Positions 50,987 to 57,398 of a stretch of 64,000 nucleotides of DNA are shown piece by piece; within the stretch, counting starts at the first letter, position 1; every line of letters starts with the position of its first letter. The DNA is taken from contig NZ_LMZQ01000004.1 in NCBI RefSeq assembly GCF_001442625.1, positions 62,001-126,000 on the forward strand, in the 5' to 3' direction. Origin of the DNA: Pedobacter ginsenosidimutans. Lineage in GTDB: Bacteria > Bacteroidota > Bacteroidia > Sphingobacteriales > Sphingobacteriaceae. The translations under genes were made by a program, and so were the position numbers. The notes beneath the pieces are model-generated. The model did not search any database and was not told the DNA's origin. It saw nothing but the letters and a program-made list of their open reading frames with translations.

Positions 50987-51676
50987 TTATCCCGCGTTAA
51001 AGCGATAACCTACTCCCCTAACAGTCTGTAACAACTGCGGATTATCAGGGTTCAATTCTATCTTCTTACGTAAGCGCACAATATGCATATCAAGCGTTCT
51101 GGTGTTCACATCAGAGTTGTAGCCCCACACCACCAACATCAATTCGTCACGGTTGATTACTTTACCGGGGTTGCGCAAGAAATAAAGGAGGATACGGTTT
51201 TCCAATATCGTTAACTCGATTTTCTTTCCATCTCTAAACAACGTGTGGATGTTTGGATGATGTTCCATATTACCAAAACGGTGAATTTCAGCTGTATCTT
51301 TATTCACGATAAATTTCACCTTGCTCTCCAACATCGCAACCAAAACATCCATATTAAATGGTTTGGTGATATAATCAGATGCGCCAAAGTTATAGGCATC
51401 AATTTTATCTACATCCTGCGCTTTAGCAGTCATCATAATGATCAGGTTTTCGAATCCTTGCTTGCGCACGTTCTCGCAAACTTCGGCGCCCTGTTTACCC
51501 GGCATCATCCAATCCAATAAAACAATATCAGGCTGATCGGCAACAATCATTCTTTCACCAGCTTCGCCATCATTTGCTTCAAGCACAGTATAACCTTCAG
51601 CCTTTAAACGGTGGGCCACAAGAAAGCGAAGATTTTCATCATCTTCTACGATTAATATTTTTACTTCTTTTGACAT
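50987..51676 (-). CDS. OmpR/PhoB-type response regulator
   Basis: 229 residues. The receiver domain has ILIVEDDENLRFLVAHRLKAEGY, phospho-acceptor Asp in DIVLLDWMMPGKQG and the conserved Lys in ASDYITKPFN. A C-terminal winged helix follows with VINRDELMLVVWGYNSDVNTRTLDMHIVRLRKKIE and VRGVGYRFN. It is third in a reverse-strand operon after the S9-like protein and histidine kinase. RprY is a possible orthologue but I cannot confirm it. Confidence 0.93.
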   Translation of the reverse strand: MSKEVKILIVEDDENLRFLVAHRLKAEGYTVLEANDGEAGERMIVADQPDIVLLDWMMPGKQGAEVCENVRKQGFENLIIMMTAKAQDVDKIDAYNFGASDYITKPFNMDVLVAMLESKVKFIVNKDTAEIHRFGNMEHHPNIHTLFRDGKKIELTILENRILLYFLRNPGKVINRDELMLVVWGYNSDVNTRTLDMHIVRLRKKIELNPDNPQLLQTVRGVGYRFNAG

Positions 51677-51785: not shown

Positions 51786-53459
51786 TTAACTATTATAAGG
51801 CAGCACTATTTTAAATTCGGTACCACTTCCTACTTTACTTTTTACAGAGATTTCCCCATCCATAAAGTTAACCAGTTCTTTGCAGAATGCCAAACCCAGG
51901 CCTACACTGCCCATTTGGTTATATTCATTCTGAATCCTGAAAAACTTCTTAAATATATTGTTTAATTCTGATGCTGCGATACCTATCCCTTTATCAGCAA
52001 ACCGGAAAACCAGCACCCCTTTAATCAACTTTGCACTAATGTGTAATTTTTTCTGCTCTGGCTTCGAATATTTGTAGGCATTCTCTGCCAGATTATCGAA
52101 TAAACTTCCCAATAATACCGGATCGGTAATAAAGGTTTTAAAGCCCACCACCTCATAGGTAATCTTAAAATCGGGATGCTTCAACGTATGCGATTCGATG
52201 GTACTTTCAATAAAATCTACAATATTAACTTCTTCCTGGTTCAGCTTAATCGCCTTATTTTCGATCTGCGTAAAGGCCAGTAATTTATTCATTAAACCGT
52301 TCAGCTTGTCGGCTTCTTCATCCAGTATCTTGCCATACAGTTGCTGTTCCCTCTGGCTTAATGCGGTAGCACTTTTAATATTGTTTCCCGCAATCTTAAT
52401 CACGCTGACGGGTGTTTTAAACTCATGCGTAAGGTTATTCACAAAATCGTACTGTAGCTTAAACATTTTACTATTGATATTCAGGTTACGGTAAATTAAA
52501 AATGCAACCAATAAAAGCACGCCGTATACCAATAATAGCACCAGGGCGATCGGCATGAAGTAAATAAAAATTTCTTTCTTGATGTAAGATCTTGATGAAA
52601 TGAGGTATAACTTAAAATCAGAAAATGCGCCTGGCAGGGCAATTTCGGTATTAATATTTTCATCAGAAGTATCAATCGGATCGTAAGTCAACGGCTCAAT
52701 CCTGATCGTTTGGTATAACAATGGTCTGGTATTGATAATCTTTATTTTATGCGCATCGAGATTAAAAACCAGTACATCCTGTTGATAAACAGGCGCCGGA
52801 TTTAACTTCCGCCTGATCATATCTTTATAGGCCCTTAAATCTTCCCGGCGGGGAATATTTAAATAGGTAATTTTATTTTCATTCGAGTTAACGATAGAAA
52901 AATTAGTAAACAATTCTTCTTGTGTAGGCACCGATGCTGTATCCAGATCCTCAACCAAAGTGGCAAGTTTAATGGCTATTGCATTAAAATCGCTTCCCAC
53001 ATTAAAAGATCTGGTATCATCTTCTGAATATAACTTTACCGAATCGGGTTTAACACCTTTACCAAACTGAAAAATAGATTTAGGGCCTATACCTAAGTGG
53101 TTTGCATTGATCCCATCCTTAACAGGAACATTCTTTACCTCGGTATCGTAAAAAGTAACCTTCGAGATAAAAGGATACTTTAACATCACGGTATCTACAA
53201 ACTTTGCTGCTGTAGAAGAATCTAAAAAGCCACTATAATACGAAATCTCGGGCATTTTATTCTGAAAGAAATCGTTATAAGGCTTAATACTTTGCTCTAG
53301 CACGTTTACTTTCTCAGATACAAAATCGTTCTCAATCGATTTCTTGCTGTAGTTAAACGCTAAAAAAAGCGATAGGATAAAAAGAATGGAAATGAGTACA
53401 ATGAAGGTTATACCGAGCGAGAAATTTTTACGATAACCACTTTTTTTATCTAAGGCCAT
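51786..53459 (-). CDS. Sensor histidine kinase
   Basis: 557 residues. Membrane helix 1 is about residues 13-33 (LGITFIVLISILFILSLFLA), followed by a periplasmic sensor region of about 260 residues, and helix 2 is about 295-325 (FIYFMPIALVLLLVYGVLLLVAF). The kinase core has phospho-acceptor His in NNLTHEFKTPVSVIKI, the N box LFDNLAENAYKYS, ADKGIGIA (G1) and GLGLAFC (G2). It phosphorylates the regulator downstream. The S9-like lipoprotein gene lies 3 bases upstream, so the three genes are co-transcribed. Confidence 0.93.
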   Translation of the reverse strand: MALDKKSGYRKNFSLGITFIVLISILFILSLFLAFNYSKKSIENDFVSEKVNVLEQSIKPYNDFFQNKMPEISYYSGFLDSSTAAKFVDTVMLKYPFISKVTFYDTEVKNVPVKDGINANHLGIGPKSIFQFGKGVKPDSVKLYSEDDTRSFNVGSDFNAIAIKLATLVEDLDTASVPTQEELFTNFSIVNSNENKITYLNIPRREDLRAYKDMIRRKLNPAPVYQQDVLVFNLDAHKIKIINTRPLLYQTIRIEPLTYDPIDTSDENINTEIALPGAFSDFKLYLISSRSYIKKEIFIYFMPIALVLLLVYGVLLLVAFLIYRNLNINSKMFKLQYDFVNNLTHEFKTPVSVIKIAGNNIKSATALSQREQQLYGKILDEEADKLNGLMNKLLAFTQIENKAIKLNQEEVNIVDFIESTIESHTLKHPDFKITYEVVGFKTFITDPVLLGSLFDNLAENAYKYSKPEQKKLHISAKLIKGVLVFRFADKGIGIAASELNNIFKKFFRIQNEYNQMGSVGLGLAFCKELVNFMDGEISVKSKVGSGTEFKIVLPYNS

Positions 53460-53462
53460 ACC

Positions 53463-55346
53463 TTATTTCTTACCTAGATTTTCTTGTAAAAATTCTTCTA
53501 ACGCTTTGTACAGAGCCGTTCTACTCTGTTGACGTACTATAGGGTTTGGACCTTCTTCCTTTTCGATATAGGTAACCTGAACATTCCTTTTTTTCAGCTC
53601 TTTGATAAACTGAACACCTTCTGCTACATTAACACGTGGATCTTTAGGATTCTGTGCTATAAAAACAGGCGATTTAAACCGATCGGCATGGAAAACAGGC
53701 GATGCAAACCGCATATAATCGGTATCGGTTACCGGATTGCCAACAATTTCATAATACATCTGCAAATTCGCTTTTAAAAACGGCGGGATGGTTTTCAGGT
53801 AACTAAACAAATTGATTACTCCTGAATTTGATCCACCACATTTATAAAGATCGGGATTTTTATACAAACAATTTAATGCGATATAACCACCAAAACCATT
53901 GCCATAAATGGCGATTTTTTTAGGATTGGCAATTTTTTGCGCGATCAACCATTTTACACCATCATTAACGTCTTCCTGGATTTTATCGCTCCACTGCTTA
54001 AAACCAGCAGCATAAAAAGATTTACCATAGCCGGTAGATCCACGATAGTTTACCTGCAAAACAGCATAACCACGGTTAGCCAAGAATTGAACTTCTGCAT
54101 TATAGCCCCAACTATTTCGCCCTGCAGGGCCATTATGCGGCAGCACCACTACAGGTAAATTAACAGGCTTTTTATTTTTGGGTAAAGTTAAATAACCGTT
54201 AATGGTTAAATTATCTGAGCTTTTAAAAGAGATTGGTTTCATGGCACTCATATCGCCCTGTTTAATAGATGGGCTAATATCAGTTAGTTTTTTAAGTTTG
54301 TTCTCGCTAACGGTATAGAGATAATAAGAACCCGGATTTTTATCGGTAAATGTTCTTACCACAAAAACCTTATCCATTTTATCTTTATCCATAATCTTCC
54401 ATTCAGTACCTGGCAAAAGCCGATCTATTTTGGAATAGGTAATCTTCGTACTGTCATCAAGGTAATATTTTTCCTTTTTCCAGGTTTCGCAGGTTACAAA
54501 GAGCATTTTCTTTTGTGGTCGCGAATATTTTGCATCTACTACATTTAAGGTATCATTTGCAAAAAGCACCTGTTTTTCTTTGCCTGTTTTTAAATCGAGT
54601 GCCACTAGTGCATTCTTATCCCTATTTACGTTAGAAATGACATAAAGTATATTGGGTTGGCTTTCTGAGAAGGCAACTGGCTGCAAAGTGGTTTCGAAAT
54701 TGTTTGTAATTACCGGAGCAAAGGCCTGGTTTTCGTTTTCCCGGTACATTAAGGTTTCGTTCACTCCATCGCTCGCTACAGCAATTTTCAACACCCCTCT
54801 GTTATCCGTCATCCATTCGGTGATATTGCCAGGGTTTTTAGCTGCAATATCCATTTTACCATTCCGAACATTTAAGCGGTAAACATCGAAAACTGTCGAA
54901 TCGCGTTTATTGGATGCAACAATAATGTATTTATCATCAATTAACTGATCTTCTATTACCCTTAACCTGTTTTTCTCATTTGCACTCAGCTGAACCTGCT
55001 TGCTCCCATCTTTATTGATCACGAAAATATCCGATTTGCGCTCTTTAGATTCATCTTCAGTATAATAAATCAACTCATTATTGCTGGTCCAGAAATGAAA
55101 ACTGATATTCTTCCCATTCAAATGGGTTAACTGAAGACTATTTCCCGTAGCAAGATCTTCAACAAAAAGATCAAGCTTTTTATCATGAAGCTTTAAGTAA
55201 GAAAGACTTTTCCCGTCTGGAGAAATGCGATAATAGGCTTTATCCTGCGTTTTAAAGAAATCGTCCACAGGAATAGTATCATTGTTAGTGCCTTTACAGG
55301 CCAAGATCAATGCAACCATTAACAATAGAAAAATCTTTTTTAGCAT
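53463..55346 (-). CDS. S9 peptidase-like lipoprotein lacking catalytic Ser and His (pseudoenzyme)
   Basis: 627 residues. Lipobox LILACK (Cys17). Residues about 35-360 form a beta propeller (ISPDGKSLSYLKL and IFVINKDGSKQ), and 370-627 an alpha/beta-hydrolase fold (VVVLPHNGPAGRNSWGYN, LQVNYRGSTGYGKSFYAAG). The serine elbow expected as GxSxGG is YGNGFGG: the nucleophile position is Gly484. Asp569 is kept (NPKDPRVN), but the usual EGH is EEGP (Pro600). Both changes were read from the DNA. It therefore cannot act as a normal serine peptidase. Its gene is the first of the histidine kinase operon (gap of 3 bases), which suggests a sensing partner. Confidence 0.88.
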   Translation of the reverse strand: MLKKIFLLLMVALILACKGTNNDTIPVDDFFKTQDKAYYRISPDGKSLSYLKLHDKKLDLFVEDLATGNSLQLTHLNGKNISFHFWTSNNELIYYTEDESKERKSDIFVINKDGSKQVQLSANEKNRLRVIEDQLIDDKYIIVASNKRDSTVFDVYRLNVRNGKMDIAAKNPGNITEWMTDNRGVLKIAVASDGVNETLMYRENENQAFAPVITNNFETTLQPVAFSESQPNILYVISNVNRDKNALVALDLKTGKEKQVLFANDTLNVVDAKYSRPQKKMLFVTCETWKKEKYYLDDSTKITYSKIDRLLPGTEWKIMDKDKMDKVFVVRTFTDKNPGSYYLYTVSENKLKKLTDISPSIKQGDMSAMKPISFKSSDNLTINGYLTLPKNKKPVNLPVVVLPHNGPAGRNSWGYNAEVQFLANRGYAVLQVNYRGSTGYGKSFYAAGFKQWSDKIQEDVNDGVKWLIAQKIANPKKIAIYGNGFGGYIALNCLYKNPDLYKCGGSNSGVINLFSYLKTIPPFLKANLQMYYEIVGNPVTDTDYMRFASPVFHADRFKSPVFIAQNPKDPRVNVAEGVQFIKELKKRNVQVTYIEKEEGPNPIVRQQSRTALYKALEEFLQENLGKK

Positions 55347-55574
55347 AAATAAATCCTTTACGGGATGACAAAAATAAGTATCATAACAACTTAACTGCGA
55401 TTTACACCAACAATGTTACTTATGCAATCAATAATAAGTCGTGGTTCAATTTAGTATTTATAAAATACCTACAAAATAAAATACAGGTAACATTTAAAAT
55501 ACGTTTAATATCAATTGATGCTTTAGCTAAAGATGTATTAAAATGTTACATTTAAAACTTATAATTTAGGGTTT

Positions 55575-57398
55575 ATGAACCGCTTGCTTTTCATCATATT
55601 CTTATTTCTATCTCTTGGGGTCAATGCACAAATCTTCCGTCCCAATCAACAGATTGCACCTGATGAAAGTAGCCTGGCCATTCAATACTATAATGATGGA
55701 GATTATGAAAAAGCAGTTGTGCTACTGGAAAAACTTTATGCCATACCCAATAATGAAGCCTATTTCGATATTTACTTTAATACATTGGTAAAATTAAAGC
55801 GTTATGATGTTGCGGAGAAAGTGGTTAAAAGAGAAATAAAAAAAAATCCTCAAGGCGATGTTTATCCAATAGCATTGGGCAAACTTTATCAAGAGAAGGG
55901 CGATGTACAAGCAGCCAACAAGATTTTTACCGATGTAATTAATAAACTTCCGAAAGATGAATTTAAGATCAGGAATTTAGCTAATAGTTTTTATCGTTTT
56001 GAAAATTATGAATTTGCGGTTCAAACTTTTAAGCAGGGCAGAAAACTGTTGGGCAACGATCAGCTATTTGTCTTTGAGCTATTGAACATTTACCGCTTTA
56101 AAAAGGATAAAGCCATGCTCATGCAAGAGTACCTTGATGCCATGGGTACCATGCCTCAGCTTTTACCGCAGGCTGAAGCCGTACTGGCTTCTATTTTTGA
56201 AGATAAAAACGATTATCAAACTTTTCAGACGGCCATTTTAAAAAAGATACAGAAAGAACCTGATGCCGAAATTTATATTCAGTTACTAACCTGGAACTAT
56301 ATTCAACAACAGGAATTCGATATGGCCCTGCGCCAGCTAATTGCATACGATAAACGCACCAAAGCTGATGGTGGGACCTTATTTAATGCTATTTATACAT
56401 TTGTTGACAATGGTGCATACGAAACAGCGATTAAAGCCTACGATTACCTATTAACTAAAGGAAAGGATAACCAGTATTATCTTCCTTCAAAAATAGAAAT
56501 GCTGAATACCAAGTATAACCTTCGTACCAACGGAAAATATACAGTAGCTGACCTTGATCTGTTAGCGAAAGATTATCAGTCCCTACTGGATGAAAACGGC
56601 AAAAACAGAAATACACTTTTCGCGATAAAAAAACTCGCAAACTTGCAGGCTTATTATTTAAATCAACCCAGCAGTGCAGAAAAAGAACTGGAAGAAGCAA
56701 TAAAAATGCCTGGCATTAACGATCAGGAGTTAGGCCAGTTAAAACTCGATTTAGGCGATATTTACATTTTAACCAACCAACCCTGGGAAGCTTTTTTAGT
56801 GTACGAGCAAGTGAGCAAACAATTTGAAGGACAACCCGTAGGAAATGAGGCACGTTTCAGGAGTGCTAAACTTTCCTTTTATCAGGGTAATTTCGAATAC
56901 AGCAATGGCCAATGCCTGGTTTTAAAGGCCGCAACTTCACAACTCATTGCAAATGATGCGCTGAACCTGAGTTTACTGATTAACGATAATATTCAAACCC
57001 CTGCGGATAGCAACGCACTAAAAATGTATGCCGATGCAGAGATGCTTTTATTCAGAAACCTCCCTGAGCGTGCACTTAAAAAAATGGACAGTATTGCGAT
57101 AGCCTTTCCACAAAATAGCCTAACCGACGCTATAATGATGAGTAAAGCAAGAATTTTCATCAAAGCAAACGATTTCCAAAAAGCAGCTGATATCCTAAAA
57201 AAAGTAACTGAAGATTTTAAAGATGGGATTTGGACAGATGATGCACTTTTTACATTGGGCGATCTTTATGAAAAGAAATTAAACGACATTACGCAGGCCA
57301 AAATCTATTTCCAGAAACTGATTACCGATTACCCGGGGAGCATGTTCAGTGCCGAAGCCAGGAAAAGGTTTAGAAATTTACGCGGAGATGGGGTTTGA
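55575..57398 (+). CDS. Secreted TPR repeat protein
   Basis: 607 residues with a signal peptide ending near GVNAQ. The rest is a long row of TPR-type helix pairs, for example SSLAIQYYNDGDYEKAVVLLEKLYA, YPIALGKLYQEKGDVQAANKIF and DALFTLGDLYEKKLNDITQAKIYFQKLI. Likely a periplasmic scaffold. The 228 bases upstream to the divergent S9-like gene are AT-rich and hold no clear element. It could be a part of an envelope machine, but no family is recognised. Confidence 0.82.
   Translation: MNRLLFIIFLFLSLGVNAQIFRPNQQIAPDESSLAIQYYNDGDYEKAVVLLEKLYAIPNNEAYFDIYFNTLVKLKRYDVAEKVVKREIKKNPQGDVYPIALGKLYQEKGDVQAANKIFTDVINKLPKDEFKIRNLANSFYRFENYEFAVQTFKQGRKLLGNDQLFVFELLNIYRFKKDKAMLMQEYLDAMGTMPQLLPQAEAVLASIFEDKNDYQTFQTAILKKIQKEPDAEIYIQLLTWNYIQQQEFDMALRQLIAYDKRTKADGGTLFNAIYTFVDNGAYETAIKAYDYLLTKGKDNQYYLPSKIEMLNTKYNLRTNGKYTVADLDLLAKDYQSLLDENGKNRNTLFAIKKLANLQAYYLNQPSSAEKELEEAIKMPGINDQELGQLKLDLGDIYILTNQPWEAFLVYEQVSKQFEGQPVGNEARFRSAKLSFYQGNFEYSNGQCLVLKAATSQLIANDALNLSLLINDNIQTPADSNALKMYADAEMLLFRNLPERALKKMDSIAIAFPQNSLTDAIMMSKARIFIKANDFQKAADILKKVTEDFKDGIWTDDALFTLGDLYEKKLNDITQAKIYFQKLITDYPGSMFSAEARKRFRNLRGDGV

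Follow-up and report, generated by a model that had tools for sequence, protein, structure and literature searches.

An S9-fold lipoprotein gene upstream of a histidine kinase gene

The window analyzed here is a 64,000-nucleotide stretch of the Pedobacter ginsenosidimutans genome. On its reverse strand lies a putative operon of three genes, encoding a lipoprotein with the fold of S9 peptidases, a sensor histidine kinase, and a response regulator, and divergent from it lies a gene for a TPR protein (Table 1). As originally predicted, the S9 gene ends 3 bases before the kinase gene: only bases 53460 to 53462 lie between the two open reading frames (ORFs), which share the same frame.

Table 1. 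Features of the S9-kinase-regulator locus, with positions in the window
Feature	Position	Strand	Size or remark
OmpR/PhoB-type response regulator	50987..51676	-	229 aa
Sensor histidine kinase	51786..53459	-	557 aa; intact kinase motifs
Kinase phospho-acceptor His345 codon	52425..52427	-	invariant in 96 homologues
S9-fold pseudo-peptidase lipoprotein (predicted)	53463..55346	-	627 aa
S9 protein, beta-propeller			residues about 26-370
S9 protein, alpha/beta hydrolase domain			residues 371-627
Pro600-Asn601, site of the lost His	53544..53549	-	from homologue alignment
Asp569 codon, triad Asp (KDPRVN)	53640..53642	-	kept in 115/116 operon members
Gly484 codon, nucleophile position	53895..53897	-	GNGFGG
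Lipobox Cys17 codon	55296..55298	-	invariant, 94/94 aligned homologues
Operon promoter: TATTTTTG, -7 box of Bacteroidetes type (TAnnTTTG)	55369..55376	-	
Conserved 19-bp element GTAACATTGTTGGTGTAAA, candidate operator	55401..55419	-	43-44 bp upstream of promoter box in most Pedobacter
Divergent TPR protein gene	55575..57398	+	607 aa; conserved beside operon

The S9 protein matched the PF00326 (peptidase S9) profile (E=3.7e-37), and its AlphaFold2 model (pLDDT 92.5, pTM 0.90) found its best solved matches among acylaminoacyl/S9 peptidases, with 7c72, 5l8s, and 1ve6 matching at Z 33 over about 550-577 residues. By catalytic-domain profile and propeller-hydrolase fold it fits the Peptidase S9 fold family. 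It lacks the Ser-Asp-His triad of an active S9 peptidase, of which Asp569, kept as predicted, alone remains. The nucleophile elbow reads IYGNGFGG, and the replacement of the GxSxGG Ser by Gly484 is read directly in the ORF translation. The His loop of this protein is EKEEGPNPIV, versus ILKEEEGHFFN in Daejeonella. The original prediction had placed Pro600 at the His site; the absence of His held up, and a one-residue gap in the alignment puts the column on either Pro600 or Asn601, so that no His occupies it. In the same genome, every other PF00326 protein whose elbow was readable had kept the Ser there along with a late His, judgment being impossible for a fragment and an unmatched hit. The S9 gene of the operon was the sole exception, and its loss of both sites is therefore not attributable to chance.

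In the kinase, the ATP-site residues, like His345, were invariant across 96 homologues. Its extracytoplasmic domain (about residues 36-298) is family specific and matched nothing in Pfam or NCBIfam and no PDB sequence; a search of the kinase for a HAMP match found none, and fold searches with the full kinase returned the kinase core and said little about the sensor domain. Kinase orthologues were confined to Sphingobacteriaceae at E<=1e-55 among 295 class-wide genomes. We rejected the idea that the regulator is the RprY orthologue of an RprXY system: it scored 134 bits against a cut-off of 370, and six other loci in the genome outscored it (best, 306 bits).

The 19-bp element upstream of the promoter box, which has only one exact occurrence in the genome, may be an autoregulatory site. 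A genome search at up to 3 mismatches returned 54 matches versus 47 for the reversed control, and no regulon was found. The intergenic region shared by the S9 and TPR genes also contains three copies of AATGTTAC/GTAACATT. In most lineages other than the Sphingobacterium/Parapedobacter-like branch the TPR gene adjoins the operon, as read in loci of Pedobacter, Daejeonella-like genomes, Mucilaginibacter, and Solitalea; in that branch none was seen beside it.

The operon and its catalytic residues across Sphingobacteriaceae

The S9-kinase-regulator trio spans the family. An S9 orthologue was present in 22 of 25 genera and in 290 of 301 genomes, with an intact ORF in nearly all of them, and it lay directly upstream of the kinase gene, mostly overlapping it or at most 20 nt away. 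A lipoprotein gene is thus a conserved part of this kinase/regulator operon, as in three-component-type systems. All 25 genomes of the same genus had the S9 orthologue, the downstream kinase, and no His at the catalytic site. The Ser was likewise gone from all but one of them, G021 (GTSFGG), which also lacks the His. We therefore rejected loss in a single strain, since homologues in the same operon, within the genus and across the family, also lack these residues.

For site reading, loci were taken from about 20 genera, and clustering at 90% identity left 126 S9 proteins, 116 kinase adjacent and 10 not. In a tree rooted on the 10 unlinked proteins, the 116 operon-linked ones formed one side of a branch with support of 82. 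Ser and His were both missing from 85 of these 116, both kept in 21 (the Daejeonella-like g37, g22, g31, and g40 and others), and singly missing in 10, where eight retained only His and two only Ser. Every unlinked homologue (10/10) kept both. A simple reading, in which both sites are lost wherever the gene adjoins the kinase, is contradicted by the 21, and so a dead S9 protein does not define the operon. In the 93 proteins in which the Ser was replaced, the substitute was Gly in 88, Arg in 3, and Asn in 2. Judged by these residues, "S9 peptidase" annotations beside the kinase of the Sphingobacteriaceae operon are usually wrong on activity.

The two Ser-only proteins (L031 and L215) carry a lone Ser at the nucleophile position within Gly clades, with the His absent. 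They look like late regains of a nonfunctional Ser.

Repeated loss of catalysis in a retained protein

We counted the changes on an S9 tree built without both site segments and found minima of at least 15 changes at the Ser and at least 10 losses of the His; a losses-only count also gave 10 His losses. On a tree of the kinase and regulator, which holds no S9 signal, the minima were 13 and 9, and its supported branches alone forced at least 7 changes of the dead state. Since both were quick trees built without bootstrap, the exact counts may shift, although the multiplicity should hold. All intermediates of the loss are found in living members: Ser and His, His only, Ser only, and neither. Dead S9 proteins arose by repeated later loss within the operon, about ten times.

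Median dN/dS among Pedobacter pairs with moderate dS was 0.036 (S9), 0.021 (kinase), and 0.011 (regulator), ratios that are approximate because the median dS of 0.93 is near saturation. In the former active-site segments of S9 (residues 400-412 and 478-492), the median dN was zero. Consistent differences between dead and active members were nearly confined to columns 484 and 601. Because dN/dS is low, these differences are few, and no catalytic residues were gained (see below), we regard S9 as a kept protein with a constrained pocket rather than as debris. These comparisons bear out a part of the original interpretation: a lipoprotein that is S9 in fold and apparently dead in catalysis, itself conserved and under selection, does belong to a conserved kinase/regulator operon. 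Taken together, the multiple losses, the active members and unlinked homologues, and the strong purifying selection in Pedobacter indicate that the enzyme was still active when the operon formed, that catalysis repeatedly became dispensable, and that the protein was retained.

Two alternatives bear directly on this conclusion. The S9 protein might still be an enzyme that works through other residues, and the continued conservation of His404, Asp569, and the oxyanion-region motif PH(N/D)GP speaks for it. However, a conservation comparison of dead and active members found no replacement catalytic residue in the hydrolase domains of the dead ones: the only Ser, His, or Cys positions at 90% or more were H404, S437, C503, and S549, which are equally kept in active members and so are not a gained nucleophile or base. 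Since, in addition, Gly, Arg, or Asn occupies the nucleophile position, we regard continued catalysis as highly improbable. A second alternative is decay, in which the substrate vanished, catalysis was lost, and the gene is now on its way out. It draws on three genomes. In G050, a 2-Mb genome of genus g27, kinase and regulator are in place beside the TPR gene, but S9 is cleanly missing from between TPR and kinase (L246, 3276-7589). In G179 (L241) and G223 (L242), single-contig genomes of g32, the S9 frame is broken, at a different point in each, next to an intact kinase, which could reflect either decay or sequencing error. Given these cases, the kinase can do without S9 in some lineages. Set against decay are the intact ORF in nearly all genomes, the low dN/dS, the invariant lipobox, and the survival of S9 in parallel after at least 9 to 10 losses of catalysis, and we give this explanation very little weight.

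A candidate accessory subunit of the kinase

We consider it somewhat likelier than even that the noncutting S9 lipoprotein serves the histidine kinase encoded with it as an accessory or ligand-binding subunit, and the residues and operon together suggest a retired enzyme now serving in a sensor. In the mechanism we propose, the protein would have stopped cutting while keeping its propeller/hydrolase shape and former pocket. It would meet the extracytoplasmic domain of the kinase in the periplasm, where the old substrate pocket or the propeller channel would bind a signal, either a peptide or an envelope fragment, and this binding would alter kinase activity. The ancestor was probably both an active enzyme and a partner of the kinase, from the start or early on, with catalysis dispensable to the partnership; cutting, being unneeded for it, would then have been lost repeatedly. 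Going further, we put at about an even chance the idea that S9 is a family-wide, exported co-receptor of one kinase in which the step from enzyme to receptor was taken about ten times independently in the same operon, with all intermediates still living.

An explanation that we find less probable, but still deserving of weight, is that dead S9 acts in the periplasm as a scaffold, chaperone, or binding protein in a role independent of the kinase, the kinase and regulator only controlling its expression or sharing its promoter. Contact does not follow from cotranscription alone, G050 retains its kinase without S9, and the conserved element upstream of the operon is unique, all of which would suit such a role. 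So would the mirror-tree analysis, a partial distance correlation, which gave no specific signal of S9-sensor coevolution: the propeller-sensor value of 0.19 was not above propeller-TPR (0.20) or sensor-TPR (0.26). An apparent propeller-sensor signal of 0.41 was rejected because it fell to that 0.19, the level of the controls, once the TPR gene was added. These correlations, like the G050 and g32 genomes, also speak against the accessory-subunit reading. On the other hand, S9 has stayed directly upstream of the kinase, mostly overlapping or within 20 nt, over family-wide divergence, and the kinase sensor is as family specific as the operon itself.

As an accessory subunit of the kinase, S9 would belong to a new candidate class of accessory sensors for bacterial two-component systems. 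It would also provide naturally replicated cases of an enzyme turning into a signaling subunit, with one operon, one partner kinase, at least 9 separate catalytic losses, and living intermediates. The original prediction knew of no described system of this type, and our search of the literature, which covered few subscription journals, also found none of this exact type.

The nearest well-studied parallel is DPP10, an S9B pseudo-peptidase in which the nucleophile Ser is changed to Gly (PMC4350108). Like DPP6/DPP10, the Pedobacter protein combines an S9 propeller and hydrolase with a replaced nucleophile Ser (GNGFGG here versus GKGYGG in DPP10). DPP6/DPP10 partner a membrane signaling protein, the Kv4 channel, and we propose by analogy the same kind of role for Pedobacter S9. 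Mammalian DPP10 is dead, and the enzymatically active form from the fly likewise serves Kv4 as a subunit (PMC4873792). Dead and active orthologues thus share the partner role there, and the Pedobacter-type operon has active members too. Unlike Pedobacter S9, however, DPP6/DPP10 are animal type II membrane proteins of S9B with an 8-bladed propeller; Pedobacter S9 is a lipoprotein with no channel partner, and the structures and sequences nearest to it are of the acylaminoacyl-peptidase type. DPP10 also keeps its His and Asp, whereas the bacterial lipoprotein lost the His as well, and many times over.

Among bacterial systems, QseG is an operon-encoded lipoprotein that activates the kinase QseE from the periplasm (PMC6075780). 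As in QseG-QseE-QseF, the Pedobacter lipoprotein is encoded with a kinase and regulator, and we propose for it a similar periplasmic action on the kinase. For QseG, contact and kinase activation were shown, whereas for S9 they are inferred; QseG has no described S9 fold, and the kinase and regulator families differ. CspC is a bacterial pseudoprotease that senses germinants (PMC6636752). RsbQ is the alpha/beta hydrolase half of a sensing module, and such hydrolases are encoded beside signaling proteins, histidine kinases included, in RsbQ-RsbP/RsbQ-PAS-kinase arrangements (PMC3183031), as here. RsbQ, however, is cytoplasmic and needs the intact catalytic triad that defines the RsbQ-PAS module; Pedobacter S9 is exported, and its triad is gone.

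The gibberellin receptor GID1 has a hydrolase fold that became a receptor with loss of the active-site His (PMC3531792). It resembles Pedobacter S9 in this loss but is a soluble plant protein that has no propeller and has kept its Ser. The closest solved sequences and folds remain the acylaminoacyl peptidase 5l8s and its relatives (S9C), which, unlike Pedobacter S9, are catalytically active, with an intact triad and no kinase linkage.
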